Of a DNA stretch of 43,261 nt, positions 8,485-27,157 are shown piece by piece. Position numbers and translations under genes: made by a program. Every line of letters starts with the position of its first letter. Position 1 is the first letter of the stretch. Source of the stretch: Candidatus Bathyarchaeia archaeon (GTDB taxonomy: Archaea > Thermoproteota > Bathyarchaeia > 40CM-2-53-6 > DTGE01); contig JAWCKG010000015.1 of assembly GCA_038852285.1 (NCBI GenBank), forward strand, positions 1-43,261, given 5' to 3'. Below the pieces are notes generated by a model that was not told where the DNA came from, did not search any database, and was given only the letters and a program-made list of their open reading frames with translations.

Positions 8485-8650
8485 GCGGAGTGGATATCCT
8501 CATAACAAAAGAGGTCTTGAAACATGGAATAATTCATCGATCATTTTTGATGAGAAAGAAGAGGTTATTAACTTATTAGTTAGTATTATTAAATATTCTT
8601 TATAAAAAATATAAAATAAAAAGAGTTCATTTAACAAAACGGCAGAAAAG

Positions 8651-9865
8651 TCAATATTTTACTGCTATTCTTTTGCCTTTCTCAGCTGAATCCGAGATCG
8701 CGTCCATTATAACGTTGCATTTATATCCGTCTTCAAACGTCGCAGCGTAGGGTCCGATCTTTTTATCGTTAACTATGGCGTCAAATAGGTGAAACACTTC
8801 GTTGATGAAGGTGTGTTCCCATCCTATGATGTGCCCATGTGGCCAGTAATACTCGATGAATGGATGGTAGCTTTCCGTAACAAGTATGGTATGCCACCCC
8901 GTAATGTCTTTGTTCAACTCAGCTATGTTGTATACTTTCAGCTCGTTAAGCCTCTCCAAGTTAAATTCTATGGAGGCTTTTTCCCCATTAATTTCAAAGT
9001 TGTTGAAGTTCTTTCTACCACCTGCGAATCTTGTGGCCTCTAACGTCCCAACGGCTCCGTTATCAAACTCAACAGCCGCTTCAAAAGCGTCCTCAACGGT
9101 GACTTTTCCTTTCTTTCCAGGCTGCTCGGGTAATGGTCTTTCTTTTATGAAGGTGGTCGTTATGCTTGAAACGGATTTAACCTCACCTATCAGGAATCTT
9201 CCTAAGTCAATGATGTGCGATCCTAGGTCTCCTAGAGGGCCTAAACCAGCCGTTTCTTTCCTGAGCTTCCATATTAAGGGGAAGTTAGGATCCATGATCC
9301 ATTCTTGAAGGTATCTTGCACGGAAGTGGTAGATTCTTCCCAGCAGTCCTTCTTCTATGAGCTTTCTGGCAAGCCTCACCGCCGGCACGAAACGATAGTT
9401 AAAGCCGACCATATGTTTCACCTTCGCCTTTTCAACTGCATCCCACATTTTTTTAGCTTCCTTCGCGTTGAGAGCTAGCGGCTTTTCGCAAAAAACGTGT
9501 TTACCAGCTTCAGCCGCGGCTATACAGGGCTCAGCGTGCATATTATTAGAAGCGCAATTATCGAACAGCTCCACCTCATCATCTTTAATTAAATTCTTCC
9601 AATCAGTGTAATGTCTTTTAAATCCATATCTTTTAGCCGCTTCACTTACAAGCTCCTCACTTCGACCGCAAATCGCTACAAGGCTAGGTCTCGCTGGAGG
9701 AGGGTAAAAGAAGATGGGCAAATCTATGTATGCCTGGCTGTGGGCTTTGCCCATGAAGGCGTAGCCGAGCATCCCAACACCTATCTCCCGCATCCTCTCC
9801 ACCCTACCCTTCAACTCAGCCATCCGAATAAAGCCTACATCCTCCCCCAAAACTAAAACCTCCAT
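8651..9865 (-). CDS. Gfo/Idh/MocA-family NAD(P)-dependent sugar oxidoreductase
   Basis: The Rossmann N-terminus holds GVGMLGYAFMGKAHSQAY (residues ~30-47), a G-x-L/A-G-x-x-x-G-type nucleotide loop. It is followed by the family's EKPLALNAKEA (K is the substrate-contact lysine) and the C-terminal-domain motif LGDLGSHIIDLGRFL. At 404 residues it is of normal length for this family of sugar, inositol and sugar-acid dehydrogenases. The substrate is not deducible. Start: ATG 9865, 9823 or 9793 are possible. Similarity to the fragment at 23747-23938 extends upstream of the 9823 Met (GFIRM versus GFVRM), which favours 9865. It lies divergent from the ABC binding-protein gene, so it probably belongs to the same catabolic locus. 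Confidence 0.87.
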   Translation of the reverse strand: MEVLVLGEDVGFIRMAELKGRVERMREIGVGMLGYAFMGKAHSQAYIDLPIFFYPPPARPSLVAICGRSEELVSEAAKRYGFKRHYTDWKNLIKDDEVELFDNCASNNMHAEPCIAAAEAGKHVFCEKPLALNAKEAKKMWDAVEKAKVKHMVGFNYRFVPAVRLARKLIEEGLLGRIYHFRARYLQEWIMDPNFPLIWKLRKETAGLGPLGDLGSHIIDLGRFLIGEVKSVSSITTTFIKERPLPEQPGKKGKVTVEDAFEAAVEFDNGAVGTLEATRFAGGRKNFNNFEINGEKASIEFNLERLNELKVYNIAELNKDITGWHTILVTESYHPFIEYYWPHGHIIGWEHTFINEVFHLFDAIVNDKKIGPYAATFEDGYKCNVIMDAISDSAEKGKRIAVKY

Positions 9866-10239
9866 TAGTTCATCTTAATGTAAAGAAGCAAATAGAGCAA
9901 ATATAAAATTTAACTTCCTTACGCGCGTTAACTGCGCCACGAGCTTTTAAAACTGCTTAACACCTCACGGAGAAGGCAACCGTCCCGACTTAAAACAAGT
10001 ATAGATGTTTAAGCATAATGACCCTAAAATTGACAGATCATAATAGTAGGTCTTGTTTGGTTAAGGCGTTTGTCATCGCATCCTCGAGCAAGTTTTGGAA
10101 CCTAAAACATGTTTGAACATACCTCCAAGCTAAAGGGAGATGACGGCCGAGTAAAACCCTTAAATAAACACGACTTTACTGTGAAGGCAAAATCTTAAAT
10201 AATCATCAGGAATGGAAGTTAAATCGGGGAAGATATTAT
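9866..10239. other. Divergent intergenic regulatory region
   Basis: This 374-nt stretch lies between two divergent genes of the locus. I see two TATA-like elements for the plus-strand gene (CTTAAATAA at 10159-10167 and again at 10194-10202). AT-rich sequence near 9900-9915 may be the minus-strand promoter. A 10-bp palindrome AAACATGTTT lies near 10107. No coding sequence is apparent. Confidence 0.4.
10194..10202 (+). promoter_or_regulatory. TATA element and ribosome site before the binding-protein gene
   Basis: CTTAAATAA is centred about 42 nt before the ATG at 10240, and GGGGAAG at 10227-10233 is a good ribosome-binding site for that ATG. An identical TATA-like string sits 35 nt upstream, so tandem promoters are possible. 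Confidence 0.45.
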
Positions 10240-11496
10240 ATGAGCAAACCAGTCTCAAGACGGGATTGGGCGAAGACTGTCGGCGGAACAATCGCTGGGT
10301 TAGCTGTTGGCGCTGCGGCTGGTTATCTTGCAGCACCAAAGGCACCCGCCGGCCCCCCAGTCGAGAAGGTTGTTGAAAAAACTGTTACCGTGACGGGACC
10401 AGGTGTAACGAAGACCGTAACGACAACTCCTGGAGCTGAGCTCCCTTGGATTGGAGATTATCTCGCAGCGCCACCAGATCCCCAATGGCACCAATGGCCA
10501 CGACGCAATCCTCCATATAAGATCGGTTTGGCGATAGCTTGGAGTGGTAATCCATGGAGGTTTATGCAAGCCGCAGAAACAAAGATGATGTTAGACGCTC
10601 TCGTTAGCATTGGGTGGGTTAAAGAGTGGAAACTGCTAGATGCTGGAGGCGATGTTCTAGAGCAAAAAAGAAATGTCGCACAACTAGAAGAATGGGGAAT
10701 GGATGCGCTGATTATCGATCCCGTTAGGCCTGACGCCCTCATTGAAGACATAGAAAGAGTCACGTCAAAAGGCATATTTACTGCGATTTGCATTGAAGCC
10801 CCAATTCCTGCACCGATCGGAACGTTGAAAAACTATGGAACAATATTCAATACGAACTACTACAAGAGCGGATATGTGCAAGGAAAATTCGTGGCGGAGA
10901 AATTAATAGAGAAACATCCACCAGAGCGTCGTAAGGTTGCAGTAATCAGAGGAATTGCCGGTGCCCCCTCAAACATACAACGGTGGGAAGGCGCAAAATA
11001 CGCCATAGACCAATACGCTGACAAGGGCGTAGAAATCGTAGCGGCTGTAGATTCCGGTTGGTCTCCGCCTAAGGCTCGAGAGGATGCTGCCGACATCATA
11101 GCTGCGCACCCAGAAGTCAGAGGATGGGTAACCCAAGGGGCCATGATGATGTCCTCGATACCTTTGGCACTTGTGGACGCGGGAAAGGATCCGAAAGATC
11201 ATGTGATGACTGGAGAAGACTTTGTCTTCAATCTAAAGCTCCAACGCAAATATGGATTTGAGATGATGATGTGCGGTAATCCCCAGTACCAACAAGCACT
11301 TATCATCTGGAGGGCCATTCAAGGCCTATCGGGTATGCCGGTTAGAAAAATTGACTTCTTCGAGCCACCTTACCTAACAACTGAACAGCTACCGTACCTG
11401 TGGAACCTCTACGAACCAATTATTAATGAACTACCAGACGCTGCTCAACTAATGACTCTACTTACACCGCAGCAATTGAAGGCCGTAATCAAATAA
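10240..11496 (+). CDS. Sugar ABC transporter substrate-binding protein with Tat signal (RbsB/Peripla_BP_4 type)
   Basis: The 418-residue protein begins with a twin-arginine signal, SRRDWAK at residues 6-12, then a hydrophobic Ala/Gly stretch (TIAGLAVGAAAGYLAA). A Val/Thr/Pro linker follows (VEKTVTVTGPGVTKTVTTT) before the binding domain. That domain is of the ribose/galactose type: KIGLAIAWSGNPWRFMQAAE, a central EEWGMDALIIDPVRPDALIE, and ERRKVAVIRGIAGA. No lipobox Cys is present, so it is probably held by the Tat anchor or released outside the membrane. It should deliver a sugar or polyol to the permeases at 14849-16773. Unusually, it stands alone on the other strand, about 3.4 kb away and separated from them by the oxidase pair. 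Confidence 0.88.
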   Translation: MSKPVSRRDWAKTVGGTIAGLAVGAAAGYLAAPKAPAGPPVEKVVEKTVTVTGPGVTKTVTTTPGAELPWIGDYLAAPPDPQWHQWPRRNPPYKIGLAIAWSGNPWRFMQAAETKMMLDALVSIGWVKEWKLLDAGGDVLEQKRNVAQLEEWGMDALIIDPVRPDALIEDIERVTSKGIFTAICIEAPIPAPIGTLKNYGTIFNTNYYKSGYVQGKFVAEKLIEKHPPERRKVAVIRGIAGAPSNIQRWEGAKYAIDQYADKGVEIVAAVDSGWSPPKAREDAADIIAAHPEVRGWVTQGAMMMSSIPLALVDAGKDPKDHVMTGEDFVFNLKLQRKYGFEMMMCGNPQYQQALIIWRAIQGLSGMPVRKIDFFEPPYLTTEQLPYLWNLYEPIINELPDAAQLMTLLTPQQLKAVIK

Positions 11497-11606
11497 GAAA
11501 CTTCGAAGTGAACGAGCAGTTCACAATCTCCCTATTTTTTACCCATTCTTTTAATTGATTCCCCATTTCCCGATCTTCCATTGTACAGGCTTATTAGATG
11601 CGCACA

Positions 11607-12854
11607 TCATATGTTAATAGTTTCTTCAACGATCTCAGCGATGTCCATAACCCTAATCTTACTTTCAATTGCGCTTATTCCGTCTTCCATCATTTGTGCA
11701 CAATTGGGGCATGCTACGGCGAGTATCTCAGCGCCTGTTTCAAGCGCCTGTTTTGCCCGTTCATTTTCCACCTTGGGTTTATCCAGTGGTTCATACCACA
11801 ATCCTCCTCCACCTCCTCCGCAACAATAGGAATTAGAATACGATAATCTCATTTCGATTAGGTCAGCTCCTGTTGCTTGGAGTATCTGGCGGGGGGCATC
11901 GTAGATTCCATTTTTTCTGCCTAGATAACAGGGATCGTGAAAAGTCACCTTTTTATCCAACTTCTTCATAGCGAGTTCCTCTTTACGAAGGAGATTTGCA
12001 AGAAACTCGGTATAATGCTGAATTTTAAGATTTAACCTAGACCACGCTTCTTTCAATAATTCAGGGTAATAGTTGATGAATGCATTATAATCGTGAGGTG
12101 AAAAGCAGATAACATTAGTAATATCATGCTCACGGAAGAGTTCTAGGTTACGTTTAGCAAGTTCCTCGAATAATCCTTCCTCTCCAAGTTCCCTGACCTC
12201 CCCTCCACTATCTTCCTCCCGGGTTCCAAAAATGCCAAAGTCGACATTTGCCAATTTCATGATTCTAGCGACAGCCTGTACTGCTTTTTGGTTTCGCTCG
12301 TTGTAAGACGCGATGGAACCAACATAGAATAATATTTCACATCTCTCTTCTGTCGCATTTTTGATGTTGAAGCCTAATTCCTTCGTCCAAGCGTCACGCT
12401 TCTCCCGAGGTTCACCATATGGATTTCCATGTCGATAAACGCTATGTAAAACATTTCGGATTTCTACCGGGGGTATTCCTTCCTCAACTACTAAGTTTCT
12501 TAGGGATCTTGTTATCCCGTTATTATCAATAATGTGATCCTTAAATGTGTTGTTAGGAAATCTGCTCCAAGACTCAGGTTCGAGCACCAAGCAATGTTCT
12601 GTGCAATTTCCACAGAAAAGGCATGAATATAATGAATCTACAAACTTTTCTGTAAAGTCTTTAACGCTTAGGCTACCCTCAAGGATCTGTCTTGCAATCC
12701 AATTTCTTCCCCTTGAAGAGTAGATCTCGAATCCACCAGTGTTTTCTCGAATGGGACATAGGCGATCTGTGTTGTCTCTTGCTCTTACCATATCTCTGCA
12801 ATAACCACACCTAGAGCACAGGTAGATTTCTTTTCTAAAATCATCTAAAGGCAT
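11607..12854 (-). CDS. Iron-sulfur oxidoreductase subunit, two [4Fe-4S] sites plus CCG domains (first CCG site degenerate)
   Basis: About 415 residues. The ferredoxin-like part has C13-x2-C16-x2-C19...C33-P and C78-x2-C81-x2-C84-x3-C88. Two CCG-type domains follow. The second is intact: HDPC309YLGRKNGIY, C344-C345-G and A-C382-PN-C385. In the first, the cysteines seen in the paralogue at 18752 are replaced: the leading C by S180, the CC by D215-S216, the next by S252. Such proteins partner FAD oxidases (GlcF, LctD-associated, HdrD type) and pass electrons from 2-hydroxyacid oxidation. Start: GGAGGG lies 6 nt before ATG 12854, so it is preferred over ATG 12860. It lies 14 nt after the FAD oxidase gene, clearly one unit. 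Confidence 0.85.
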   Translation of the reverse strand: MPLDDFRKEIYLCSRCGYCRDMVRARDNTDRLCPIRENTGGFEIYSSRGRNWIARQILEGSLSVKDFTEKFVDSLYSCLFCGNCTEHCLVLEPESWSRFPNNTFKDHIIDNNGITRSLRNLVVEEGIPPVEIRNVLHSVYRHGNPYGEPREKRDAWTKELGFNIKNATEERCEILFYVGSIASYNERNQKAVQAVARIMKLANVDFGIFGTREEDSGGEVRELGEEGLFEELAKRNLELFREHDITNVICFSPHDYNAFINYYPELLKEAWSRLNLKIQHYTEFLANLLRKEELAMKKLDKKVTFHDPCYLGRKNGIYDAPRQILQATGADLIEMRLSYSNSYCCGGGGGGLWYEPLDKPKVENERAKQALETGAEILAVACPNCAQMMEDGISAIESKIRVMDIAEIVEETINI

Positions 12855-12868
12855 GCTCATCCCTCCTC

Positions 12869-14281
12869 TCAGAGTTCATCAGGCAAAGTTAGTGCTCCTG
12901 GATTCATAATGTTATTCGGATCTAGAGCCTTTTTAATCCTAATTAAAGTGTCTCGATAAACCGGATTTTTCATGATAGTGTAAGCATACCACTGTTTTCC
13001 CGGCTTATAATTGCACCCCCCACATTCCGCCGCTATTCTAACAATTTCATTCACCATTTCTTTAGCTAATTTAACGGATTCTGGATCGCTTTCATCGTAA
13101 TAAATCGAGGTAGATACATGTCCTGCATTCTTTTGAGCGATACTTATAGTTGCCGAGTACACTTTCTTTCTTTCACGTTCCTCTTTACGTGAGTTAATAT
13201 AGTGCAAAACTTTTTCTAAATCTTTTAACGCACCCCCGGCGGTATTCAAATGACAGCACCACTGCCACACACCTATCTTCGAAACCCACCTGGGTAAAGT
13301 TTCGAATTTATAATCCCATCCGTCTTTAGAGTATTTAGGATCTTGAGGCTCCCCTCCCTTCTCTACCGCTATTTGATCAAGCAAATTTTTCCTTGCCTCA
13401 ACGAGCGCATTACTTACATCTTCAACAACGTAGGCGAGCATGGATACGTAGCCTTTTTCAGCCAATTCCGGCACCATTACATTTAATCCATCTTCTGCAT
13501 ACCACCAAAGATCTTCTGCCAACCCATTCTTAAGCCATTCGTAGTAACACGCCTGGCAGGATTTATAGTCTCTAAATGCATAAGCCCCAAAAGCACTATG
13601 AGTAGATTTGGGATACATTCGAATAGTTACCTCCGTTATCACTCCAAGCGTTCCTAAGGACCCGAGGAAGATGCCAGCCAAATCTGGACCTATACAATAT
13701 CTGTAGTACCTTTTAGCTTTAGGATTTACCGCTGTACCAGTTTTTAGCAGGTCGCCATTTGGCAGAACTACAGTTAAATTCGTAACTTCTTCAGGGATTA
13801 ATCCGTATCTTGTGCTACCCATACCGGTTGAGTGAAAAGCTACGCCACCTCCTACAGTGGATGCATAACCGGAGTATGGACCCCTAAAACCTAATCTCCA
13901 TCCTTTTTTTTCTAGCTCTGCATTAAGCTTCCCCCAAGTTGTTCCAGCTTGAGCGGTAACTGTAAGGGACTCTTCATCTATTTCAATAATATCGTTCATT
14001 CTGGTCATATCAATTAGAATCGATGAAAGCATCTTACCCCCACGAGGCCCCGCACAGGCTGTACCTCCACCTCTAGGATACACGGGTGTCTTAGTCATAT
14101 TCGCCAAGCGTATTATTTCCTGAACTTCTTCAATACTCTTCGGCCTTACTACGATTGCTGGCGGAGTTGGTTCAATGTGATCGTAAATAGATGAATCCAT
14201 GGAGTAACTCCATCGTACCCATAAATCATCAGAAACATACGATGGGCCAACAATTTTTGCTAACTCCTCAATTAAATTCAT
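12869..14281 (-). CDS. FAD-linked oxidase, GlcD/LctD-like 2-hydroxyacid dehydrogenase
   Basis: The 470-residue protein has a PCMH-type FAD domain. AIVVRPKSIEEVQEIIRLAN opens it, then VYPRGGGTACAGPRGG (residues ~68-83), TAQAGTTWGKLNAELEKKG and GYASTVGGGVAFHSTGMGS. The C-terminal cap domain ends with the family's LDPNNIMNPGALTLP. Relatives oxidise glycolate, D-lactate or other 2-hydroxy or sugar acids and pass electrons to an iron-sulfur partner, or to EtfAB in electron-confurcating lactate dehydrogenase. The CCG-domain partner is directly downstream, and EtfBA lies 6 kb away in the same island, so an ETF-linked complex is plausible. The substrate is unknown. Start: ATG 14281 with GGTGA just upstream. 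Confidence 0.87.
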   Translation of the reverse strand: MNLIEELAKIVGPSYVSDDLWVRWSYSMDSSIYDHIEPTPPAIVVRPKSIEEVQEIIRLANMTKTPVYPRGGGTACAGPRGGKMLSSILIDMTRMNDIIEIDEESLTVTAQAGTTWGKLNAELEKKGWRLGFRGPYSGYASTVGGGVAFHSTGMGSTRYGLIPEEVTNLTVVLPNGDLLKTGTAVNPKAKRYYRYCIGPDLAGIFLGSLGTLGVITEVTIRMYPKSTHSAFGAYAFRDYKSCQACYYEWLKNGLAEDLWWYAEDGLNVMVPELAEKGYVSMLAYVVEDVSNALVEARKNLLDQIAVEKGGEPQDPKYSKDGWDYKFETLPRWVSKIGVWQWCCHLNTAGGALKDLEKVLHYINSRKEERERKKVYSATISIAQKNAGHVSTSIYYDESDPESVKLAKEMVNEIVRIAAECGGCNYKPGKQWYAYTIMKNPVYRDTLIRIKKALDPNNIMNPGALTLPDEL

Positions 14282-14848
14282 TGTTTCACCATAGGTTTTT
14301 TATGTAAAATCAAATGTGACTTAAGCTTTTTGGTCCTATATATGTGTTGTAAACTTAAGATTGGAATGCCTTTCGCTGTAGTGCTACGTGTGATTTGGTC
14401 CATGTCCGCCTATTCACGCCGGTGATGCAGGATTCTTCAAGCATGTAGAAGTACAGTTCAGGGCATAGGATGCCGCCAACTCAGCCAGCATACGCTAACA
14501 AGGAAACTGAACCCTAAGTTCATAGGACCTTCGCGATGTCATGGTATAACATTTTAGATACATTTGAAGAAGAGCTAGGGGTACAAGGGCATGAATAGGA
14601 GTTGAGCGGTTAGAAGCAAATGGATACGGGAAAAACCATCCGTTTAAGAAAAGCATCAGGTGATGAGAGCGTTCATATCAAACGTAAAAAGTATTTTTAG
14701 AGTTTGTGAGCGCAAAAATTTTCACCTCATTTGAAATTTTAGTGTAGAAAGATGAGGAATAAGATCGGCTAACTATCTCGTGCAGGAGATTCGGAACTGG
14801 ATCCGCATTCCCGAATGATTGACGGCGACGCCGTCTTCAATTGAACAC
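14282..14848. other. Intergenic region with promoter for the FAD oxidase unit
   Basis: This is 567 nt without a convincing gene. CATATATAGG near 14337-14346 reads as a TATA element on the minus strand for the oxidase (about 56 nt leader). The left part shows short peptide-like stretches in one plus frame (near 14424 and 14598) interrupted by many stops. They are too weak to call a pseudogene. Confidence 0.4.
14821..14845. terminator. Palindromic hairpin after the permease operon
   Basis: GACGGCG-A-CGCCGTC at 14821-14835 is a perfect inverted repeat with 7-nt arms. It is followed directly by the 10-bp palindrome TTCAATTGAA. It begins 3-4 nt beyond the stop of the last importer gene on the minus strand, so a transcript-end hairpin is the simplest reading. 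No long T-run follows, so classic archaeal termination is not shown. Confidence 0.4.
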
Positions 14849-15826
14849 TTAAGCGCCAACCTTTTGTCTTGCCACAATGATTCCTGCTATTATAATTCCT
14901 GTGAAAATTAGAATGCCAGCTTCACCGAACCCTAGTGCGATTAGAAGGCCTCTAAGAATTCCATACAAATAAGCTGCGATAAACGTCCCAATGACTCCGC
15001 CTTCACCTCCCCTGAATGTAGTTCCCCCTATAACAGGGATTGCAAGAGCGGCCAGTAAATAATCTAATCCGATCCCTGCTGGAGCTACTGAGAGAGCGGG
15101 AGTTATAATTCTTCCAAGATAAAATAGGCTGGATATTGAAGTGAAAAGTCCGGCAAGGATGTAAACTGCTACTAAAATCTTCTTTATTTGGATTCCAGAG
15201 AGATACGATGATATTGGATTCGATCCAACAGCGTACACCTCTCTACCAAATTTTGTCTTTCTAAGCACAAACCATAAAATTATGGTTAGAATTGCCCATA
15301 TGATTCCTGGAGCTGGTATTCCCATCACATTTGTGGAGACAAAGTTTACCAGATCATTGTGCGCACCTCCCCGAGGGTACCCGCCAGTATAAACAAGGGT
15401 GAATCCGCTTAAAGCGGTCATCATGCCCAAGGTCATGACTATTGGTGGAACTTTTAATAGGCCAATTCCCAAGCCGTTTAGAAGCCCTATCAACGCCCCA
15501 AAAAGAAGTATTAAGATCATTGGTAGCCATAGCTCTCCCATGCTCGCGAAGAAAATTCCCCCTATGATAGCTACGGTCATCATATTTGCTCCCACCGACA
15601 AATCTACCCCCCCTGTGAGAATGATTAAAGTTTGTCCCAGAGCCATGATCCCTGGTATAGAAATTCTTCTGAACAATTCAGTCTGATGCTGAATAGTCAG
15701 AAAATCAGACATGAAATATGCGCCTATAGCTGATAATACAATAGTGGCTCCTATAAGAATAAGGTACTCCTTCCTAACCTTGGATAAGTAATCCATCCAA
15801 ATCTTAGATAATACACTGCTCTTCAT
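14849..15826 (-). CDS. Sugar ABC transporter permease (RbsC/BPD_transp_2 family)
   Basis: The 325-residue protein is very hydrophobic, with about eight to ten membrane spans. It has the family signature around ILTGGVDLSVGANMMTVAIIG (residues ~69-89), the conserved G-x-D-L-S-V-G of ribose-type permeases, and the cytoplasmic coupling region around AVGSNPISSYLSGIQIKKI. LDYLLAALAIPVIGGTTFRGGEG near the C-terminus is also typical. It forms the membrane pore with the other permease, whose stop lies 2 nt upstream of this ATG (translational coupling). It is the third and last gene of the ATPase-permease-permease unit. Confidence 0.92.
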   Translation of the reverse strand: MKSSVLSKIWMDYLSKVRKEYLILIGATIVLSAIGAYFMSDFLTIQHQTELFRRISIPGIMALGQTLIILTGGVDLSVGANMMTVAIIGGIFFASMGELWLPMILILLFGALIGLLNGLGIGLLKVPPIVMTLGMMTALSGFTLVYTGGYPRGGAHNDLVNFVSTNVMGIPAPGIIWAILTIILWFVLRKTKFGREVYAVGSNPISSYLSGIQIKKILVAVYILAGLFTSISSLFYLGRIITPALSVAPAGIGLDYLLAALAIPVIGGTTFRGGEGGVIGTFIAAYLYGILRGLLIALGFGEAGILIFTGIIIAGIIVARQKVGA

Positions 15827-15828
15827 GA

Positions 15829-16773
15829 TTATCTACGTCCTAAAGCAGTATATCGCTGAACTATTGCCGCCGTTATGAGTAGAGCACCATTGATTATGTA
15901 TCTGTACCATACAATCCAACCTTGATAAAATAGGAAGCTAGTAATAGACCCTAGAATTAATACCGCGGCACAAGTGTTCGGGAACCTCCCCACACCACCA
16001 GTTACGCTTGTACCTCCAAACAAAACCGCTGCGATAGATGCAAAGAGTAGGGGGCTCCCGAGGGCTGGATCGCCTGTTAAAGCTTGAGCTGCCACATATA
16101 ACCCCCCAAAGGCAGCGAAGAGACCGCTCATTATATATACTTTTAATTTTATTCTTTGCACATCAATCCCTCTTAGAAATGCCTTCTCTTCTGAATCACC
16201 AATGGCATAGATCAAACGTCCGAGATGCCTCTTTTCTAAAAGTAATGCTCCGAATAGGGCCAATCCAATAAAAGCAACAATCGGTCCTATCGCAATCCCT
16301 CCTAAGTCGAGCATCATATAACTAGCGAAAGTTCGACTAATATATCCTCCTGGACTTGGTCGAATAATTAATGTTATACCATCTACCACAAACATCATAC
16401 TAAGAGTCATTAGAAAAGGATTGACGTTAAATTTTGTAACGCCTATACCGTTTACTAATCCAACTAGTCCCCCCACTAAAAAGGCAACGACTATCGATCC
16501 CGCTACGGACCAAGTCATCAGAACAGATAAAATGGCTGTCATTAAACTGACTAGGGATCCAACCGTTAAGTCAAAACCTTTAACAAGAATCACTATATTT
16601 TGTGAGAGTGTAACTGCCAACAGAGGTGTTGAAAAGACGATTACTCTTACGATGTTAGGGACGGAGGAAAAGGCGGGAGCGATAGCTGTGAAACTTCCCC
16701 AAATAACAAAGAGGACGACAATCATATACCAATCCGAAAGTAAACGTTTCACGCTTTTGAAATTAACTCCCAT
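15829..16773 (-). CDS. Sugar ABC transporter permease (RbsC/BPD_transp_2 family), second subunit
   Basis: This 314-residue paralogue of the next gene has the same layout. NIVILVKGFDLTVGSLVSLMTAI is the G-x-D-L-T-V-G signature, YAIGDSEEKAFLRGIDVQRI the coupling region, and SPLLFASIAAVLFGGTSVTGGVG the closing motif. Two different permeases suggest a heterodimeric pore, unlike the RbsC homodimer but known for several archaeal and Gram-positive sugar importers. It lies 13 nt downstream of the ATPase gene and 2 nt upstream of the second permease. Several Pro, Gly and hydrophobic runs give about eight spans. Confidence 0.91.
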   Translation of the reverse strand: MGVNFKSVKRLLSDWYMIVVLFVIWGSFTAIAPAFSSVPNIVRVIVFSTPLLAVTLSQNIVILVKGFDLTVGSLVSLMTAILSVLMTWSVAGSIVVAFLVGGLVGLVNGIGVTKFNVNPFLMTLSMMFVVDGITLIIRPSPGGYISRTFASYMMLDLGGIAIGPIVAFIGLALFGALLLEKRHLGRLIYAIGDSEEKAFLRGIDVQRIKLKVYIMSGLFAAFGGLYVAAQALTGDPALGSPLLFASIAAVLFGGTSVTGGVGRFPNTCAAVLILGSITSFLFYQGWIVWYRYIINGALLITAAIVQRYTALGRR

Positions 16774-16786
16774 GGTTCATCATCTT

Positions 16787-18283
16787 TCAAGTTGAATCTT
16801 CTTTAAAATAGGCCCGCAATACGTTCTCTTCGGTAATTTCATCACCTTTTAACTCCTCAATAACAGCTCCGTTCCGCATGACTAATATTCTATCAGGAAG
16901 GTTAACTACTTCAGAAAGTTCGGATAAATATGTTATAACAGCTATGCCTTTGTTTGCCAAATCTCTTAAAATTTTATAAACTTCTGCTTTTGTGGCCAAA
17001 TCGAGACCGATTGCGGGACAGCTAGCAAGTATTACCTTAGGGTTTTTGCATATCCATTTTCCAAATACCACTTTTTGTCTGTTTCCTCCACTAAGTTGCA
17101 TTATTAATGCACCTAAGGAGGGAGCTTTTATATTAAACCGCCTCGCATTATCTTTTGCAAGTTGATTTAAGCCGGATTCATTTAATATTCCAAATTTACT
17201 ATATTTATTGAATGAAGGAATAATTATATTCTCCATTACTGATTGATTAGGCCATAACTCTTCCATATCCCTATCGTCCGAAATATAGATTATTCCACGA
17301 TCTATTGCTTCTTTAGGACCTTTTACATCTATTTTTTCTCCATTCAAATAGAAATCCCCGCTTTCTCTTGCCATAACGCCATATATCATGCGGAGAACGT
17401 TTTCCATTCCCTGTCCTCTCAGCCCAGCTAAAGCCAAAATCTCTCCTTCTCTAACCTCAAAATCTACATTTATTCCTTTTCCCTTTAAATTCCTAACTTC
17501 AAAAATTTTTTTCTCTTTTATATTAGAAGCTTTATCAGGGAAAGTAAGTTTAGTGCTCTTCTCACCAATCATCATCTCAATTATTTGATCTCTATTTATT
17601 TTTTTACCAGAAGCTGTCCCGACCAATCTTCCATCTTTTAAAACGATAGCTTCATCGCTCACTTTTAATACTTCCTCTAACCTATGCGAAATGAAGAGAA
17701 CAGTTTTTCCACTTTCCTTTAAATCCTTCATATGAGCAAAAACTAGCTTGACCCCGTCCTCAGTTAATGGAGCGGTGATTTCATCAAGAATAAGGAGTTT
17801 CGGCTCATAATAAAGCGCCCTGGCGAGCTCAACCATTCTTTTTTCATCAGGTCTCAGATCTTTTGTTTTTCTATCAACATCGACATCTACGTTAAATTCC
17901 TTTAAGATGCCTCTTACCATTTCTTTCATTAACCTGTGAGATATGAAGCCACCTCTGTAGAATCTATTCTCTATTTCCAAAAAGAAGTTTTCAGCGATAG
18001 TCATTTCAGGGATTAAAGCAGGTTCTTGATGCACACATGCGATTTTATACTTCAACAAGGCCTCCATCGCATTATAATGAGCCTCTATACCATCAACAAA
18101 TATTTTTCCCTTATCACATTTGTACACGCCTGATAGGATCTTAACTAACGTAGATTTACCAGCACCGTTTTCACCAACCAAAGAATATATTCTACCAGAT
18201 TTCAAGGAGACGTCAACATCGTCAAGCGCTTTAACCCCTGGAAAGGTTTTTGTGATGGATTTAGCAGATACGATGTCGGCCAA
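16787..18283 (-). CDS. Sugar ABC transporter tandem ATPase (RbsA/MglA type)
   Basis: The protein has two ABC domains in one chain. Domain 1 has VGENGAGKSTLVKILSG (Walker A), DLRPDEKRMVELARAL (degenerate signature) and KLLILDEITAPL (Walker B). Domain 2 has LAGLRGQGMENVLRMIYG (the usual degenerate Walker A of RbsA second domains), LSGGNRQKVVFGKWI (signature), and VILASCPAIGLDLATK in place of the usual ...DEPTRGID. The coding frame stays open upstream to 18412, but AGGAGG at 18291-18296 lies 7 nt before a TTG at 18283. That start gives 498 residues, the family norm, and starts at the first conserved segment (LADIVSAKSITKTFPGVKAL). It energises the two permeases downstream. Confidence 0.91.
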   Translation of the reverse strand: MADIVSAKSITKTFPGVKALDDVDVSLKSGRIYSLVGENGAGKSTLVKILSGVYKCDKGKIFVDGIEAHYNAMEALLKYKIACVHQEPALIPEMTIAENFFLEIENRFYRGGFISHRLMKEMVRGILKEFNVDVDVDRKTKDLRPDEKRMVELARALYYEPKLLILDEITAPLTEDGVKLVFAHMKDLKESGKTVLFISHRLEEVLKVSDEAIVLKDGRLVGTASGKKINRDQIIEMMIGEKSTKLTFPDKASNIKEKKIFEVRNLKGKGINVDFEVREGEILALAGLRGQGMENVLRMIYGVMARESGDFYLNGEKIDVKGPKEAIDRGIIYISDDRDMEELWPNQSVMENIIIPSFNKYSKFGILNESGLNQLAKDNARRFNIKAPSLGALIMQLSGGNRQKVVFGKWICKNPKVILASCPAIGLDLATKAEVYKILRDLANKGIAVITYLSELSEVVNLPDRILVMRNGAVIEELKGDEITEENVLRAYFKEDST

Positions 18284-18751
18284 GCCTTTTCCTCCTACAC
18301 TGCATTCTATAATAGAGCTTATAGAAAAGGTTTTCGAGAGCATGTACGTAAGGTTTACTCTCCATATATCAAATATAAGAAGCCGAGGTCTAGTGACGTA
18401 CGCTTTGGCCACTTAATCTTTGAGCAGGTGCTTGAGTTGCCATAGGCTAAGCATCTAAATTTATAGAATATCAATGATAACTCCTTAAGTCCCGTTTTAA
18501 TAGTTGAACTCTTTTACAATTGTTAACCCACTTCCCTTAAGCATCCATTAACGAAGGATTGGTAAACAAAAACTGACCTGATTTGAATAACATCCTGGAA
18601 GGGAAGCACATTATGCCTTTATGGCTTATCAAACTGGGACGATGAATGGAAGCCAGATTAAAATCTTAAGTTAACAGACATAAAATCGCAAACGAAAGAA
18701 GTAAGAGACTAGTTAAGTTTCACATCTTTTAAGTTCACTATAAGGGTGACC
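18284..18751. other. Intergenic and 5' leader region of the importer operon
   Basis: This 468-nt AT-rich stretch lies between the ATPase start and the end of the second CCG-protein gene, both on the minus strand. It includes the ATPase ribosome site (18291-18296). A half-copy of the 24314 palindrome core (GTTGCCATA at 18436-18444) is present but has no second arm. I see no gene. Confidence 0.35.
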
Positions 18752-19861
18752 TTAGAGTGCAAGGATTAAAAGTTCAGCGATATCCATTATTCTGATTTTC
18801 CCTTCGTTTCCTGTAGTTCTTACAGCATCTTCAATTGTCAGAAGACAGAAAGGACATGCTGTAACTAAAATATCTGCTCCAGCCGCTACAGCATCTTTTA
18901 CACGTATTTCAGCTAATCTTGAACCTGGAATGTCCACCCACATTCTTCCACCCCCACCTTCACAACATAAGCTTAGGGTTCTTGAACGGTTAAACTCTAA
19001 AAGTGTGACGCCTGGAATACTTTTGATAACTTCCCTCGGCTCTTCGTATATACCGTTTCGCTTACCTAAAAAGCATGGGTCATGGTAAATAATTTTCTTT
19101 TTTAATCCTTTTGTGATTATTAGTTTTTTTTCTTCTATTAGTTTAAAGAGCAGTTGCGTTTGGTGTATTGGTTTAAAATCAGTTTGATTGTAAAGGTTCT
19201 TAAAGGCGTGGAATCCATGTGGACAGTTTGTAACGATCTGTTTTACAGCATACTTATTAAAAATTTTCATATTTTCCTCAACTAGAAAGTCGAATAAGCC
19301 TTTTTCGCCCATACAATAGACTTCATTACCACAGCAATTTTCCTCTTCGCCTAAGATTCCAAAGTTTACACCAGCTTTTTGGAGGCATGAAACGAAGCTT
19401 TTAGCGACGTTTTGAATACGTGAGTCGTAAGCTGAAGTGCATCCCACATAATATAGAATTTCAGCACCTTCAGAAACGTGCTTGACATTTAAGTCTTCAC
19501 TCCATTCACTACGTTTGCTACGAGTTATACTCCATGGGTTACCGTTTTTAAATACACTTTCAAGAGCATCACGAATTGTCGACGTAATTCGTCCCTCTTC
19601 CACAGCCATACTCCTTATGTCGATTAAAAACTCATATGGTCGCAAACCTCTTGGGCAACCAACACCACACGTGGAACACATCGTGCAACTCCACAACTCG
19701 TTCTTTAATTGAATACTGAGCTTGTTCAACACAGAGATCTCATGCATATATCGCCTAACGTTCAAACCAGCTTTCCTTGCAACTGGACATCCGCCCGTAC
19801 ACATTCCGCACTGCATGCATTTAAGGAGACCGTGCCTCAAAACGAGCTCTTGAAAATTCAT
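18752..19861 (-). CDS. Iron-sulfur oxidoreductase with two intact CCG domains (HdrD/GlcF/LldE-like)
   Basis: 369 residues from ATG 19861. A GTG at 19879 could add six residues, but it overlaps the GGTG of the likely ribosome site. Two ferredoxin-type sites are complete: C15-x2-C18-x2-C21-x3-C25-P and C59-x2-C62-x2-C65-x3-C69-P. The first CCG domain has C141, C176-C177-G and C213-P-H; the second has HDPC263FLGKRNGIY, C299-C300 and A-C336-PF-C339. This is the HdrB/HdrD-like architecture that binds non-cubane or related clusters and works in disulfide reduction or flavoprotein-linked electron transfer. It is divergent from EtfBA, so ETF is a natural partner. It is a close paralogue of the gene at 11607. 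Confidence 0.87.
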   Translation of the reverse strand: MNFQELVLRHGLLKCMQCGMCTGGCPVARKAGLNVRRYMHEISVLNKLSIQLKNELWSCTMCSTCGVGCPRGLRPYEFLIDIRSMAVEEGRITSTIRDALESVFKNGNPWSITRSKRSEWSEDLNVKHVSEGAEILYYVGCTSAYDSRIQNVAKSFVSCLQKAGVNFGILGEEENCCGNEVYCMGEKGLFDFLVEENMKIFNKYAVKQIVTNCPHGFHAFKNLYNQTDFKPIHQTQLLFKLIEEKKLIITKGLKKKIIYHDPCFLGKRNGIYEEPREVIKSIPGVTLLEFNRSRTLSLCCEGGGGRMWVDIPGSRLAEIRVKDAVAAGADILVTACPFCLLTIEDAVRTTGNEGKIRIMDIAELLILAL

Positions 19862-20669
19862 TTTTATCTCTCTTTTCACCTCACTTCATTTTTACTTCAA
19901 TTAAAAGCTTAAGAATAATTTTTTAATAAGCATTATCCTTTCTATTAGTCTAAATAAGCTGTGAAATACGAGAGATTATTTCATAGGAAGAAGCCGACGA
20001 CACGCTAAGAATTGGAATTTTTCTATGAAAATATTAAGGTGACCAGGTGATGTTGAGACTACCCTAACATTCAGAATTGGAAGTAGGTTTTTATCGCAAA
20101 ACAAATCTCATCATAAATTTAATTTGACAAAATCGCAGAATCAGAGATGAGTGCCATGTTAATATCTCCGAATAATGTTCTTAAGTTTTATACGATATAT
20201 CAAAAACGTCTCAACAGCCGCGAGAAAAGTAAGTTCAGAAGACCGTAAATGGGACATAAGGAGTTTGAACCTGTCATAAGCAATAAGTAAAAAAGGTTCA
20301 AAGAAAATTCTTATAATTTACGGCAGAACAAACGGCATAGTTAGTTATTCTTAGATTCCGAGGTACAAACTTCATTGAGTGAGAATCTATTAAGTAAAGG
20401 TCGCTTTCCGCTTCGAGAGTACGAACCTTAACGCTCCTAGGAATGATTTCTCGCTGGACTTTTTGAGTCGCGTTGGGCTGTTCCTAGATCAAGAACTAAA
20501 CCTAGTTGACCCACTCCTATTAAATCATATACCTGACATGGGTCATCAAGCTTAAATCATGAGATAAAGTCTAGATTAAAACTTACAAAAATGGAACGGC
20601 AAACATAAATTATATAAAAATGATTTTTATTAACCAAGACCTTTCAGCGAGTTAGGGAGAAGAATTGCG
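19862..20669. other. Long intergenic region before EtfBA
   Basis: This is 808 nt without a recognised gene. The right end carries the etf promoter. On the minus strand about 20299-20490 there is an open stretch of some 60 codons with protein-like composition but no ATG near its start and no family I recognise. It could be a gene remnant. No tRNA-like cloverleaf or repeat array was seen. Confidence 0.35.
20610..20662 (+). promoter_or_regulatory. TATA element and ribosome site of etfB
   Basis: TTATATAAAAA begins at 20610, about 60 nt before the TTG start at 20670. GGGAGAAG at 20655-20662 is a good ribosome-binding site and is the main reason for choosing the TTG. Confidence 0.5.
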
Positions 20670-21458
20670 TTGGATATAATTGTTTGTGTCAAGCATGTAC
20701 CAGAAACGGCTGAAGCAGAGCTTAAAATAAGCGCAAACGGCAAAACAATAGAAAAAACTGGTTTGGTATTCAACATTAACGAGTGGGACAACTATGCGGT
20801 AGAAGAGGCTGTGCGCATAAAGGAAAAGTTCGGTGGGACGGTTACGGTCATAACTGTAGGCACAGAAGACTCGGATTATACGATACGTAGATGTCTAGCT
20901 CACGGCGCAGACAATGCGATACGCTTAACGGATCCTAGATTTGAAGGTTCAGATGGCTATGCAATTGCAAAAATTCTTTACAGTATAATTAGAAATTTAC
21001 ACTACGATTTGATTTTGACCGGCTCTCAAGCTGGAGATGATGGCTATTCCATGGTTGGTCCAACAATAGCTGAAATGCTTAATATACCGCATGTTGTGCT
21101 CGTTAAAAAAATCGAGTTGGAGGCTGGAATTGCAAGGGTCCATCGTGAACTTGAAGGCGGATTTGAAGAGGTTGTTGAGGTTAAATTACCAGCGCTTTTA
21201 GCAGTTCAGACAGGTATAAACGAACCACGCTACGTTTCGATAACGAGTATACGCAGGGCAATGCAAAAAGAAATAAAAGTTATGAGTCTAGCAGATACGG
21301 GGTTAAGTGAAAATGAGGTTGGCGAAGCAGGATCATGGCTAAAAATAGAGAAATTACACGCGCCGCCAGTTGAAAAACAAATAGAATTTCTCAAGGGAAA
21401 TTCAGAAGAGGTTGCAGCGAAAATTATTAAAATTCTTAGGTCAAGGGGGCTCATATGA
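20670..21458 (+). CDS. etfB: Electron transfer flavoprotein, beta subunit
   Basis: The 262-residue protein matches EtfB throughout: DIIVCVKHVPETAEAELKIS at the start, then FNINEWDNYAVEEAVRIKE, GADNAIRLTDPRFEGSDGYA, LILTGSQAGDDGYSMVGPTIAEML and LPALLAVQTGINEPRYVSI. EtfB binds AMP or, in bifurcating forms, a second FAD; I cannot settle which from motif inspection. It pairs with EtfA, which starts at the base after its stop. In this island the likely donor is the GlcD-like oxidase and/or the CCG proteins. The start is TTG 20670, supported by GGGAGAAG just upstream. Confidence 0.94.
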   Translation: MDIIVCVKHVPETAEAELKISANGKTIEKTGLVFNINEWDNYAVEEAVRIKEKFGGTVTVITVGTEDSDYTIRRCLAHGADNAIRLTDPRFEGSDGYAIAKILYSIIRNLHYDLILTGSQAGDDGYSMVGPTIAEMLNIPHVVLVKKIELEAGIARVHRELEGGFEEVVEVKLPALLAVQTGINEPRYVSITSIRRAMQKEIKVMSLADTGLSENEVGEAGSWLKIEKLHAPPVEKQIEFLKGNSEEVAAKIIKILRSRGLI

Positions 21459-22439
21459 ATGACTGAAATTTTCGTTTTAGCGGAACATAGGCAAGGACAA
21501 ATACTTGACATAACATACGAAGTATTGACAAAGGGCAAAGAGATAGCGGAAAAAACGAACGCTAAATTAGCAGTCCTCATACTTGGTAAAGACGTTAAGG
21601 AAAAAGCAAAAACCTTGCCCGAATATGTAAACAGAGTATTAGTTGTTGAGGATTTTAAACTTGAGAACTTTAATTCTGACGCCTGGATAAAAATACTTTC
21701 AAACATAATCATGGAACAAATGCCGTTATTAACCATGATGGGACATACATCTTATGGAATGGAATGTGCCCCGAGACTTGCGGCCTCACTAGGAATTCCA
21801 ATAGCAACAGATTGCATAGACTTAGACTTTGAAGACGAAAACCTTGTAGTGATGAGACAAATGTACGGGGGCAAAGTTAACGTTAGAGCTATTCTCAAGA
21901 AGGCGAAAAGCTATATGGTCACGGTTCGTCCGGGCGTTTTTATAGCCCGGAAGCCAAAAATACCGTTTAACGGTGAAGTAATAGAAAAACAATCCCTTCT
22001 AACAGAGGAAGTAACTACAAAACGCTTCGTTGAGTATGTTTTTCCACCGCCAGGCGAAGTGGACATTACGGTAGCTGAAAAGCTTGTTGGCATAGGTAGA
22101 GGAATAAAAGATCAAGCTAATATGCCAATGATGGAAGAATTCGCAAAAGCTATAGGTGCTGTTCTCGCCTCTACAAGGCCGGTTATAGATAAGGGTTGGC
22201 TTCCAAGCGATCGACAGGTTGGCAGTTCAGGAAAAACCGTTAAACCAAAACTCTATTTTGCGGTTGGTATAAGCGGTGCCTTCCAACACATTTTAGGAAT
22301 GAAAAATTCTGATCTGATAATAACCATAAACAAAGATCCGAAGGCGCCCATATTTAATTTCTCAGACTACGGCATTGTCGAAGACCTGTTCAAAATAGTC
22401 CCGGAATTAACGAAAAGAATAAACGAGTTAAAGGGATGA
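21459..22439 (+). CDS. etfA: Electron transfer flavoprotein, alpha subunit
   Basis: The 326-residue protein opens with TEIFVLAEHRQGQILDITYE and contains the EtfA FAD-binding C-terminal domain. That domain reads STRPVIDKGWLPSDRQVGSS, then KPKLYFAVGISGAFQHILGM and INKDPKAPIFNFSDYGIVED, all highly conserved in ETF alpha. No N-terminal ferredoxin domain is fused, so this is the standard-length form. It follows etfB with no gap. With no acyl-CoA dehydrogenase in the window, the ETF probably serves the sugar-acid oxidase modules nearby, which is inference. Confidence 0.95.
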   Translation: MTEIFVLAEHRQGQILDITYEVLTKGKEIAEKTNAKLAVLILGKDVKEKAKTLPEYVNRVLVVEDFKLENFNSDAWIKILSNIIMEQMPLLTMMGHTSYGMECAPRLAASLGIPIATDCIDLDFEDENLVVMRQMYGGKVNVRAILKKAKSYMVTVRPGVFIARKPKIPFNGEVIEKQSLLTEEVTTKRFVEYVFPPPGEVDITVAEKLVGIGRGIKDQANMPMMEEFAKAIGAVLASTRPVIDKGWLPSDRQVGSSGKTVKPKLYFAVGISGAFQHILGMKNSDLIITINKDPKAPIFNFSDYGIVEDLFKIVPELTKRINELKG

Positions 22440-22858: not shown

Positions 22859-23737
22859 TTATTTAAGATTTAAACTCTTTAGATATTTGACGCTTTTCTC
22901 GACTGCCTTATCTTCATCGTCGTAGCCTTCTTTCAGGCAATCTATCTCAACAGCGAAGAATCCTTTATAGCCCGCGTCGTTTAAGATTTGTATTATTGAA
23001 GGCATGTCTATGATTCCATCTCCTACTGGAACTGCGGCCCAAAAGAACCAATCTCTGGGGGTAGCTGGCGTACTGTAGAATTTATTGTACCTCACCGGGC
23101 TTACGTCCTTGATATGTGTTGCGACTACATATGGGGCTAGTTTCTTTGTAGCTTCCACTGGATTTTCAAACATTCTTAAAGCGTTGCCAGTATCAAGGTT
23201 GACTTTTAAACTTTCAGAGCCCACTTTCTCGATCAGGTCTAAGAGCTCATCAGAGGTATAATCTATATGATTTTCATAAGCTAGTTTCAGATCGTATGAT
23301 TCTGCTTCTTCAACCACCTTCTTGAGAATTTTCCTCAACCTCTTCAGTTGAGGCTCATGAGGCTCATCGCGAAATTTTAGACTGCTTCCAACTATCCTTA
23401 ATATGTTTGTTCCAATCTTCTTTGTAGGCTCAAAGTGCCTTCTCAGATCCCATATCGCCTCTTTATTCTTTCCCGCCTCTAGCCCATCAGGGTGCCCCCA
23501 TGCCATAACCCTCTCCATTCCATATTGATCCAGCAGCCTCTTCAACTTCAGAATGTAATCTTCTTCGATGCTAGGGAGGAAGCAAGTTTCAAGGCTTACT
23601 CCATTTACTCCTAGCTTCTTTGCCCTTTCTATAAAATGCTCGTATGTCCATCTTTTTTCCGTCTTAGGCTGTATGTCATATATTTCTCCAAAGTACCTGT
23701 GATAACAGTAGCTGTCGACTCCTACTTTCACTTTCAT
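22859..23737 (-). CDS. Sugar phosphate isomerase/epimerase, xylose-isomerase-like TIM barrel
   Basis: About 292 residues from ATG 23737, which has GGTGA 5 nt upstream; a GTG at 23746 would add three residues but is part of that ribosome site. The fold is the AP-endonuclease-2/xylose-isomerase-like barrel. Likely metal ligands are the Glu of KLAYENHIDY, the Asp of KVNLDTGNALR, the His of VVATHIKDVSP and the Glu of FFAVEIDCL. Relatives include IolE/IolI, hydroxypyruvate isomerase and tagatose or psicose epimerases, so it most likely isomerises or epimerises a keto-sugar or inositol derivative. It starts immediately after the Gfo/Idh fragment and probably shares its promoter. Confidence 0.82.
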   Translation of the reverse strand: MKVKVGVDSYCYHRYFGEIYDIQPKTEKRWTYEHFIERAKKLGVNGVSLETCFLPSIEEDYILKLKRLLDQYGMERVMAWGHPDGLEAGKNKEAIWDLRRHFEPTKKIGTNILRIVGSSLKFRDEPHEPQLKRLRKILKKVVEEAESYDLKLAYENHIDYTSDELLDLIEKVGSESLKVNLDTGNALRMFENPVEATKKLAPYVVATHIKDVSPVRYNKFYSTPATPRDWFFWAAVPVGDGIIDMPSIIQILNDAGYKGFFAVEIDCLKEGYDDEDKAVEKSVKYLKSLNLK

Positions 23738-23746
23738 ATTTTTCAC

Positions 23747-23938
23747 CTAGCCGAGTCTGCAGAAAAAATTTTCTATAACGCAGTTGTCGACGTTAAATTC
23801 TAAATCTATGTATGCTTGGCTGTGGGCTTTGCCCATGAAGGCGTAGCCGAGCGCCCCAATGCCTACATCCAGGACCCTCTCCACTTGACCCTTCACCTCA
23901 GTCATTCTAACAAAACCAATTTTCTTCCTCATACTCAA
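23747..23938 (-). pseudogene. Truncated Gfo/Idh/MocA oxidoreductase fragment
   Basis: The 63-residue reading frame matches the first ~50 residues of the intact oxidoreductase at 8651-9865: GFVRMTEVKGQVERV, then GALGYAFMGKAHSQAYIDL. It then ends after an unrelated-looking tail (EFNVDNCVIENFFCRLG). A family enzyme needs about 330 residues, so no catalytic domain remains. At DNA level 23802-23852 matches 9720-9770 with a single mismatch over 51 nt, showing a duplication. It sits just upstream of the TIM-barrel gene, perhaps leaving its promoter to drive that gene. Confidence 0.75.
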
Positions 23939-23964
23939 ATACTTCCTTTAGTTTTATGTGGCTT

Positions 23965-25303: not shown

Positions 25304-26311
25304 TTGACTTGTAGATTTGGTTTTTACGCTGCTCATGAACAATACGACCCTATTAGGCTATTAGATTTTGCAGTTCAAGCTGAAAGATATGGTTTTGACA
25401 CGGTCTGGAGTAGCGACCACTTTCATCCTTGGGCTCATACCGACGCGAACTCAGGCTTCGCTTGGATATGGTTAGCTACAGCCGCTGATAGAACCCAAAA
25501 GGTTTCTCTAGGGACGGTTACTCCGACGCTTCTACGGTATCATCCCGGGGTGGTGGCCCAGGCGTTCGCCACCCTAAACTTCATGTACCCTAATAGAATA
25601 TTCTTATGTTTGGCTACCGGGGAGGCCATGAATGAAGCCCCACTTGGGTTACCGTGGCCACCCTACAAGGAAAGGCTAGCTAGGCTGGAAGAATCCCTCA
25701 TTATAATTAAAAGATTATGGATGGAGAGTTTCATAGACTTCGAGGGAAAATACTATCGATTAAGAAAAGCGAATTTATACACTAAACCAAAGACAAAAAT
25801 TCCATTATACGTGGCGGCTAACGGTCCCTCCGCAGCCTATCTCGCTGGCAAGTACGCTGACGGTTTATTGACGAGCGGCCGAGTCTTTGATGAAAAATTC
25901 AAACCGGAATTGCTCCCAGCGCTAGAAAAAGGAGCTCGAGACGCGGAAAGAGACCTTAGCGAAATTGACAGAATAGTCCACATCATAACGTCCTACGATG
26001 AAGATTACGATAAAGCAGTTGAAGGCTGTAAGTTCTGGAACGCTACGATGGTGCCTGGAATATTCAACGCTGAGGTATACGATCCCAGGGTAATAGAGGA
26101 AAAAGCACGATCAATTACCAGGGAAGAGGTGATAAAAAAGCGTTTCATTGTAACCTCGGAGGAGGAGGCGATAAAAAAGATTGAATCTTATTTAAAATTA
26201 GGCATCAAGGAAGTAGAGTTCTTAAGCACTAGCCCAAACCAAGATAAATTCATAAAGTTTTTCGGAGAAAAAGTATTTCCTTATTTTAGATCCACCTTAA
26301 ACGGTTCTTAA
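25304..26311 (+). CDS. fgd: F420-dependent glucose-6-phosphate (or sugar) dehydrogenase, LLM class
   Basis: The 335-residue protein tracks the mycobacterial FGD1 family closely: SSDHFHPWAHTDANSGFAW (residues 36-54) with D38-H39, LGTVTPTLLRYHPGVVAQAF, MYPNRIFLCLATGEAMNE with E107, FEGKYYRLRKANLY, and a late KKRFIVTSEEEA. In FGD1 the equivalent His and Glu are catalytic, and the Arg of the last motif contacts the sugar phosphate. FGD oxidises glucose-6-phosphate to the lactone and reduces F420. Archaeal relatives may prefer free sugars, so the substrate is not certain. The start is TTG 25304 with GAGG 8-9 nt upstream. It sits in the locus with cupin PGI and a cyclase-family hydrolase. Confidence 0.85.
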   Translation: MTCRFGFYAAHEQYDPIRLLDFAVQAERYGFDTVWSSDHFHPWAHTDANSGFAWIWLATAADRTQKVSLGTVTPTLLRYHPGVVAQAFATLNFMYPNRIFLCLATGEAMNEAPLGLPWPPYKERLARLEESLIIIKRLWMESFIDFEGKYYRLRKANLYTKPKTKIPLYVAANGPSAAYLAGKYADGLLTSGRVFDEKFKPELLPALEKGARDAERDLSEIDRIVHIITSYDEDYDKAVEGCKFWNATMVPGIFNAEVYDPRVIEEKARSITREEVIKKRFIVTSEEEAIKKIESYLKLGIKEVEFLSTSPNQDKFIKFFGEKVFPYFRSTLNGS

Positions 26312-27054: not shown

Positions 27055-27157
27055 GATTCATCCTAAATTATTTAATTTATAAACACCATATAAACTGATT
27101 TGACATAATAGAAAAAAGAGGGGGCTGTAAGTCAGACCGATCATCTAGGTGATTAAT

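Follow-up and report, generated by a model that had tools for sequence, protein, structure and literature searches.

The window analysed here, the 43,261-nucleotide contig JAWCKG010000015.1 of a Candidatus Bathyarchaeia archaeon (assembly GCA_038852285.1), carries genes for a sugar importer interleaved with genes for a GlcD-like flavin dehydrogenase (OXI), two iron-sulfur proteins with CCG domains (CCG1 and CCG2) and an electron transfer flavoprotein (ETF; EtfB and EtfA). The explanation that we favour, with moderate confidence, is a horizontally acquired island for sugar import and catabolism that holds two redox modules of different ancestry: an OXI-CCG2 dehydrogenase and, beside it, a non-bifurcating ETF with an EtfD-like carrier, captured from a fatty-acid oxidation system. 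The window is contig C15 of the genome G000 (1.72 Mb in 42 contigs, 99% complete).

Importer and redox genes

The importer is of the CUT2 ribose type and its gene set is complete: a Peripla_BP_4 sugar-binding protein with a Tat-like N-terminus, SRRDW (10240..11496, plus strand; 3e-27), two BPD_transp_2 permeases on the minus strand (permease 2, 14849..15826, 7e-31, with a ribose permease as nearest model; permease 1, 15829..16773, 1e-28) and a tandem ABC ATPase that resembles AraG, XylG and RbsA (16787..18412, minus strand; two ABC_tran stretches; nearest models AraG, xylose and RbsA). The first ~45 codons of the ATPase are doubtful, and no comparable match to it was found in the class outside this segment. 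CCG2 (11607..12860, minus strand; CCG 5.7e-20, Fer4_8) is an HdrD/GlcF-like protein, and OXI (12869..14281, minus strand) was assigned by family match to FAD_binding_4 and FAD-oxidase_C, by alignment and by its PDB relatives. CCG1 (18752..19879, minus strand) resembles both a fusion of HdrC and HdrB and the iron-sulfur protein EtfD, and is followed on the plus strand by etfB (20670..21458; ETF 2.7e-41; TTG start) and etfA (21459..22439; ETF and ETF_alpha). All genes named in the preliminary description of this DNA are thus in their place, with long open frames and strong family matches. Only three units are tight: OXI and CCG2, with 8 bp between them; the permease pair and the ATPase; and etfB with etfA. 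Gaps of 340-790 bp separate these units.

An island of foreign composition

The GC content is 0.51-0.55 over the first 8 kb (with one stretch of 0.48 at 6-7 kb), mostly 0.36-0.46 between 8 and 32 kb and 0.48-0.58 beyond; the drop, from about 0.52 to about 0.41-0.46, was placed between 8.0 and 8.5 kb and the climb back at 32 kb. GC3 per gene is 0.32-0.55 within the island and 0.53-0.75 outside. By tetranucleotide profile, the stretch 8.5-22.3 kb is a poor fit to G000 (0.747) and both flanks are a good one (0.916 and 0.940). These steps in GC and GC3, together with the foreign tetranucleotide profile, indicate that the gene set sits in an acquired island. The genes do lie within 10240-22439, the extent given in the preliminary description, but the island is larger, about 8.5-32 kb.

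A shift of composition within a contig is also what would be expected if the window were chimeric, or if the island came from another organism by misassembly or misbinning. An artefact is further suggested by a contig assigned to a genome of another family (G038:C18, L037), whose entire 18,059 bp correspond to window 4252-22308 at 99.8% identity (35 mismatches, 2 gaps), ending at 4252 and inside etfA. However, both records agree across the junction from PEPCK to the island and both window flanks have the composition of G000, and we regard an artefact as very improbable. The left flank of the G038 contig is G000-like in composition (0.864, against 0.508 for G038), and misbinning of this contig is therefore the simpler reading; a match to G038's own PEPCK was not found in the ~1 Mb of G038 searched. 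The contig is probably misbinned, with a recent transfer as the less likely alternative. We did not accept G038 as a genuine second carrier, as its contig lies wholly within window sequence and has a G000-like left part.

OXI and CCG2 are a tandem of the phylum

OXI and CCG2 are a phylum-wide tandem: in a survey of 30 loci with oxidase homologues, 24 have a CCG protein within 1.5 kb of the oxidase. Only two of the 30 loci have an ETF at a distance of up to 10 kb, one in G479 (7.6 kb) and one at the genome's own LctD-like locus, and neither of these oxidases is an orthologue of OXI. Apart from the identical G038 copy, the only orthologues above 60% identity are those of G086 (63%) and G202 (61%). 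In both genomes, CCG2 adjoins OXI and is followed by a Gfo-family gene, within sugar-import islands that have CUT1-type importer genes, a zinc dehydrogenase, a DegT aminotransferase, SIS and HAD proteins and, in G202, a ROK kinase. With their DegT, GlmS-like SIS, HAD and Gfo proteins and OXI-CCG2, the islands of G202 (L078) and G086 (L080) could encode an amino-sugar pathway. Neither an ETF nor a CUT2 importer was detected in these two islands; OXI-CCG2 is therefore a unit of sugar islands that operates with no ETF linked to it.

The tandem of an FAD_binding_4/FAD-oxidase_C protein with a GlcF/HdrD-like CCG protein is shared with the glycolate oxidases GlcDF and GlcDEF and with D-2-hydroxyacid dehydrogenases that have a CCG partner. 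OXI differs from these in its sugar-importer context, in a score of 129 bits to the GlcD equivalog (cut-off 568) and in the absence of the metal-site residues. In the lactate dehydrogenase subunit LctD, the metal is bound by His377, His384 and Glu422 and His423 is catalytic (PMC9232219); in the alignment, OXI has non-ligand residues at the ligand positions (AQKNAGHVSTS, NYKPGK). Because OXI belongs to a subfamily without the LctD metal ligands and the catalytic histidine, the usual D-2-hydroxyacid substrate is not indicated. A structure prediction for OXI from a three-sequence alignment reached a mean pLDDT of 43.

The two CCG proteins were called twins in the preliminary description, a term that does not suit a pair with ~39% identity over 293 residues, one of which has no cysteines in its first CCG domain. 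In the alignment, this domain of CCG2 has S, DSG and SPHD (GSIASY/DSGG/SPHDYN) in place of the GC...CCG...C.GC of its relatives, a loss common to the G202 and G086 orthologues and similar in G136. The second CCG (noncubane) domain is intact and two cubane motifs are kept. In EtfD, clusters D1 and D2 sit in the first and the second CCG site, respectively, and His583 is a further ligand of D2. FadF and DgcB, relatives of EtfD for which ETF is the proposed electron source, also have no D1 cysteines and are thought to take electrons directly at D2 (PMC13083937). CCG2 retains a histidine, that of SPHD, at the place where His583 of EtfD binds D2. CCG2 resembles FadF and DgcB in its loss of the D1 cysteines, and from its sequence we infer that it probably has no first CCG cluster. 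The CCG2 orthologues differ from the EtfD family in being paired with a GlcD-like oxidase rather than with an ETF.

CCG1 and EtfBA descend from a class-wide hdrA/acyl-CoA dehydrogenase locus

Orthologues of EtfB and CCG1 are widespread in the class, with up to 76% identity, but in the order to which G000 itself belongs the EtfB proteins seen do not exceed 44%. In many genomes the orthologous locus runs from CCG1 to an oppositely oriented hdrA of the HdrA2-like type and on to etfB-etfA, frequently with an acyl-CoA dehydrogenase next. CCG1 and etfBA of the window are orthologous to this locus and have the same divergent arrangement; the window locus differs in that hdrA is absent as a gene between CCG1 and etfB and that no acyl-CoA dehydrogenase follows etfA. 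CCG1 and EtfBA thus descend from an hdrA/acyl-CoA dehydrogenase locus. Neither an oxidase nor a CUT2 importer was detected at any of 18 loci around ETF orthologues. A joint complex of oxidase, CCG protein and ETF, as in the preliminary description, is not supported by the homologous loci from either side, with no oxidase detected at these 18 loci and an ETF near only two of 30 oxidase homologues, neither of them an orthologue.

The conserved archaeal arrangement CCG1, hdrA, etfB-etfA and, optionally, acyl-CoA dehydrogenase is present at L097, L098, L099, L101-L103, L110, L114, L115 and others. In G042 and some other genomes it also includes a thioredoxin-reductase-like protein, an HdrA/VhuD-like polyferredoxin and an Nfn-like pair. 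At L112 (G040:C4), EtfBA stands beside an HdrD-like protein with a membrane domain that resembles EMO/EtfD, an HdrA and hydrogenase genes.

With two 4Fe-4S (cubane) motifs, two CCG domains and an adjacency to etfBA that is kept in its relatives, CCG1 is similar to EtfD, EMO, FadF and DgcB (PMC13083937). Its best PDB match is the mycobacterial EtfD 9ojn (3.5e-54): residues 61-373 of CCG1 match residues 408-743, in the soluble part of EtfD. Unlike EtfD, CCG1 matches this part only: it has 375 amino acids and starts at the Fer4 region, with no counterpart of the EtfD membrane region in the 9ojn match. A further difference is the pairing with HdrA in the relatives of CCG1. In this and in its likeness to an HdrC-HdrB fusion, CCG1 recalls the HdrABC-type bifurcating complexes, from which the window locus differs in the apparent loss of HdrA.

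Probable loss of the old partners of the ETF

The 790-bp gap between CCG1 and etfB (19880..20669) probably holds an hdrA remnant on the plus strand. An nhmmer profile of 11 hdrA orthologues from the class gave two colinear matches on the same strand, of 7.1 and 1.9 bits (~19927-20029, intergenic sequence and gene start, and ~20261-20336, coding), while the best score in 400 dinucleotide shuffles was -2.9 bits. A profile of coding sequence only scored 2.0 bits where shuffles reached -2.7 at best, and none of seven control gaps had a match to the hdrA profile. At the protein level the search was borderline (25.8 bits, best of 200 shuffles 25.4) and its signal less clear than that of the DNA profile. 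The HdrA proteins that G000 does have are only 40-43% alike; one of them is encoded in a cluster that resembles HdrABC/[NiFe]-hydrogenase clusters (L117, G000:C5:38000-57900), with HdrB and HdrC-like genes.

A query for acyl-CoA dehydrogenase, the one type of ETF client that was searched for, had no hit in G000, G001 or G038 and found 4 places in G202 and 11 in G086. EtfB and CCG1 have open frames, and their pN/pS against the orthologues is 0.17-0.23. With hdrA apparently lost, no acyl-CoA dehydrogenase detected, and etfBA and CCG1 intact, the ETF would therefore need another electron donor, for which OXI next door is one candidate. Intact etfBA and CCG1 genes beside a decayed hdrA suggest continued use without the old partners.

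The window ETF is not of the LctBCD type

A flavin/iron-sulfur dehydrogenase pair within a sugar-import island, as the preliminary description had it, is borne out by the window and likewise by the orthologues in G202 and G086. The other half of that proposal, an LctD-type confurcating complex of oxidase, CCG protein and ETF, is not, as the diagnostic features are absent. OXI with EtfAB would then be an equivalent of the Ldh-EtfAB (LctBCD) of Acetobacterium woodii (PMC9232219, PDB 7QH2) and oxidise a hydroxy acid or a sugar with NAD+ and reduced ferredoxin. The two systems do share a GlcD-type FAD_binding_4 oxidase and EtfAB in one neighbourhood, and LctC is the best PDB match of EtfA. However, bifurcating EtfB proteins have the b-FAD motif DGDTAQVGP, and EtfA of LctBCD has an N-terminal [4Fe-4S] ferredoxin domain (PMC9232219), whereas the aligned EtfB of the window reads DDGYSMVGP and its EtfA (326 amino acids) has the ETF and ETF_alpha domains only. 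The window also adds two CCG proteins. As these features and the LctD ligands with the catalytic histidine are all missing from the window proteins, we rejected their membership in the LctD/confurcation type; that the window nevertheless encodes such an enzyme is most unlikely.

A separate module of the same genome does carry the features in question, which is a further argument against an LctBCD-type function of the window proteins. It is encoded by G000:C9:2-2960 and G000:C27:1-852 (L059, L060) and is an LctBCD-like module in an archaeon: its EtfA has CxxCxxC...CP ferredoxin motifs before the ETF domain, its EtfB reads DGDTGQVGP, and its oxidase (C9:1536-2960), like the paralogue at C9:22159, keeps GHxxDGNxH and EHGxG. 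By these motifs, it is the C9/C27 module and not that of the window that fits the LctD model. A survey from 2018 found bifurcating Ldh in bacteria only (PMC6085437).

A possible electron path, or mere co-residence

The importer would bring in a sugar or a sugar derivative, and OXI would oxidise this compound or a product of it on its FAD and pass the electrons to CCG2. The non-bifurcating ETF would be reduced by a flavin dehydrogenase, most likely OXI (or a further GlcD paralogue encoded in the genome), and would hand the electrons on to CCG1, in the way that ETF feeds proteins of the EtfD/FadF/DgcB type. In yeast, GlcD-type enzymes reportedly donate electrons to a non-bifurcating ETF (PMC6771786), which would be a precedent. 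More tentatively, and at less than an even chance in our judgement, an ETF and HdrD-like reductase that formerly served HdrA and acyl-CoA dehydrogenase may have been captured by the sugar-import island and rewired to a GlcD-like sugar dehydrogenase without bifurcation. A functional link between the ETF and sugar oxidation is plausible.

Several observations weigh against such a link. In orthologous loci OXI and ETF do not lie next to each other, G202 carries both modules far apart, and only one independent instance of the combination is known, that of G000, the G038 copy being the same DNA. The client of the ETF might be a flavoprotein other than OXI, as the genome has several GlcD paralogues. 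As for hdrA, its match is weak, and the stronger of the two parts lies partly in intergenic sequence. Because of the saturation of synonymous sites in most pairs, the pN/pS values are no proof of present-day selection.

The two modules may instead be merely co-resident, with OXI-CCG2 acting alone in sugar oxidation and CCG1-EtfBA either serving an unrelated flavoprotein dehydrogenase or persisting as a still undecayed relic; their proximity would then reflect how the island was assembled. The separate ancestries of OXI-CCG2 and CCG1-EtfBA agree with this, as do the absence of any orthologous locus that joins them, the closest relatives of OXI-CCG2 with no ETF nearby and the other GlcD paralogues as possible ETF clients. 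It is less easily reconciled with an hdrA that appears decayed between intact neighbours, with a genome in which no acyl-CoA dehydrogenase was found and with a single low-GC segment that holds both modules. We consider co-residence a serious possibility, while not thinking it probable.

Other genes of the island

The first gene of the low-GC island encodes GfoA (8651..9865, minus strand), an NAD-type sugar dehydrogenase of the Gfo/Idh/MocA family whose nearest NCBIfam model is levoglucosan dehydrogenase (401.5 bits, cut-off 650). A second Gfo/Idh/MocA dehydrogenase (27149..28195) has inositol 2-dehydrogenase as nearest model, also below the cut-off. An LLM oxidoreductase of the F420 type (25304..26311; 212 bits to TIGR03557, cut-off 210) resembles F420 glucose-6-phosphate dehydrogenase. 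Given these Gfo/Idh/MocA and F420-type dehydrogenases, sugar oxidation by flavin alone is unlikely in this island, and the suggestion of the preliminary description that flavin is used rather than NAD is contradicted by the two NAD-type Gfo dehydrogenases.

Further island genes encode two TIM-barrel sugar proteins, an FGGY kinase, a cyclase and a cupin-type protein. One of the TIM-barrel proteins, TIM1 (22859..23746, minus strand; AP_endonuc_2 5.7e-36), is epimerase/dehydratase-like and weakly similar to IolE. It is adjoined by a 5' fragment of a second GfoA-like gene (23747..23938, minus strand; 78% to 9720-9866). The corresponding direct repeat of 147 nucleotides (78%; 9720-9866 and 23802-23948) comprises the 5' end of gfoA and the truncated second copy upstream of TIM1, and flanks the segment with importer, oxidase and ETF. 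The window has no Rfam match and no tRNA. Positions 1-521 overlap G000:C33:1-520 at 98.7%, suggesting that C33 extends the window to the left.

With its Gfo/Idh/MocA dehydrogenases, TIM-barrel epimerase/dehydratase and ABC sugar importer, the island is similar to the levoglucosan and inositol islands (LgdA; IolG/IolE); unlike in these, the matches of the window are all below the curated cut-offs, and the window adds the FAD oxidase with its CCG protein as well as the ETF. A limited literature search found no description of this gene set, which is a new combination of known families.

Implications for electron transfer in archaea

ETF is known chiefly for its partnership with acyl-CoA dehydrogenases. 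If the reading of a captured ETF is true, an ETF that has outlived HdrA and acyl-CoA dehydrogenase beside a sugar oxidase would show how electron-transfer modules are exchanged between pathways in anaerobic archaea, and the island would encode an ETF-linked route of sugar oxidation without bifurcation. The window provides a concrete set of expressible proteins with which the ability of a non-bifurcating ETF to support the oxidation of sugars could be examined. The class-wide locus of CCG1, hdrA, etfBA and acyl-CoA dehydrogenase, in turn, proposes an assayable electron route for archaeal fatty-acid oxidation.

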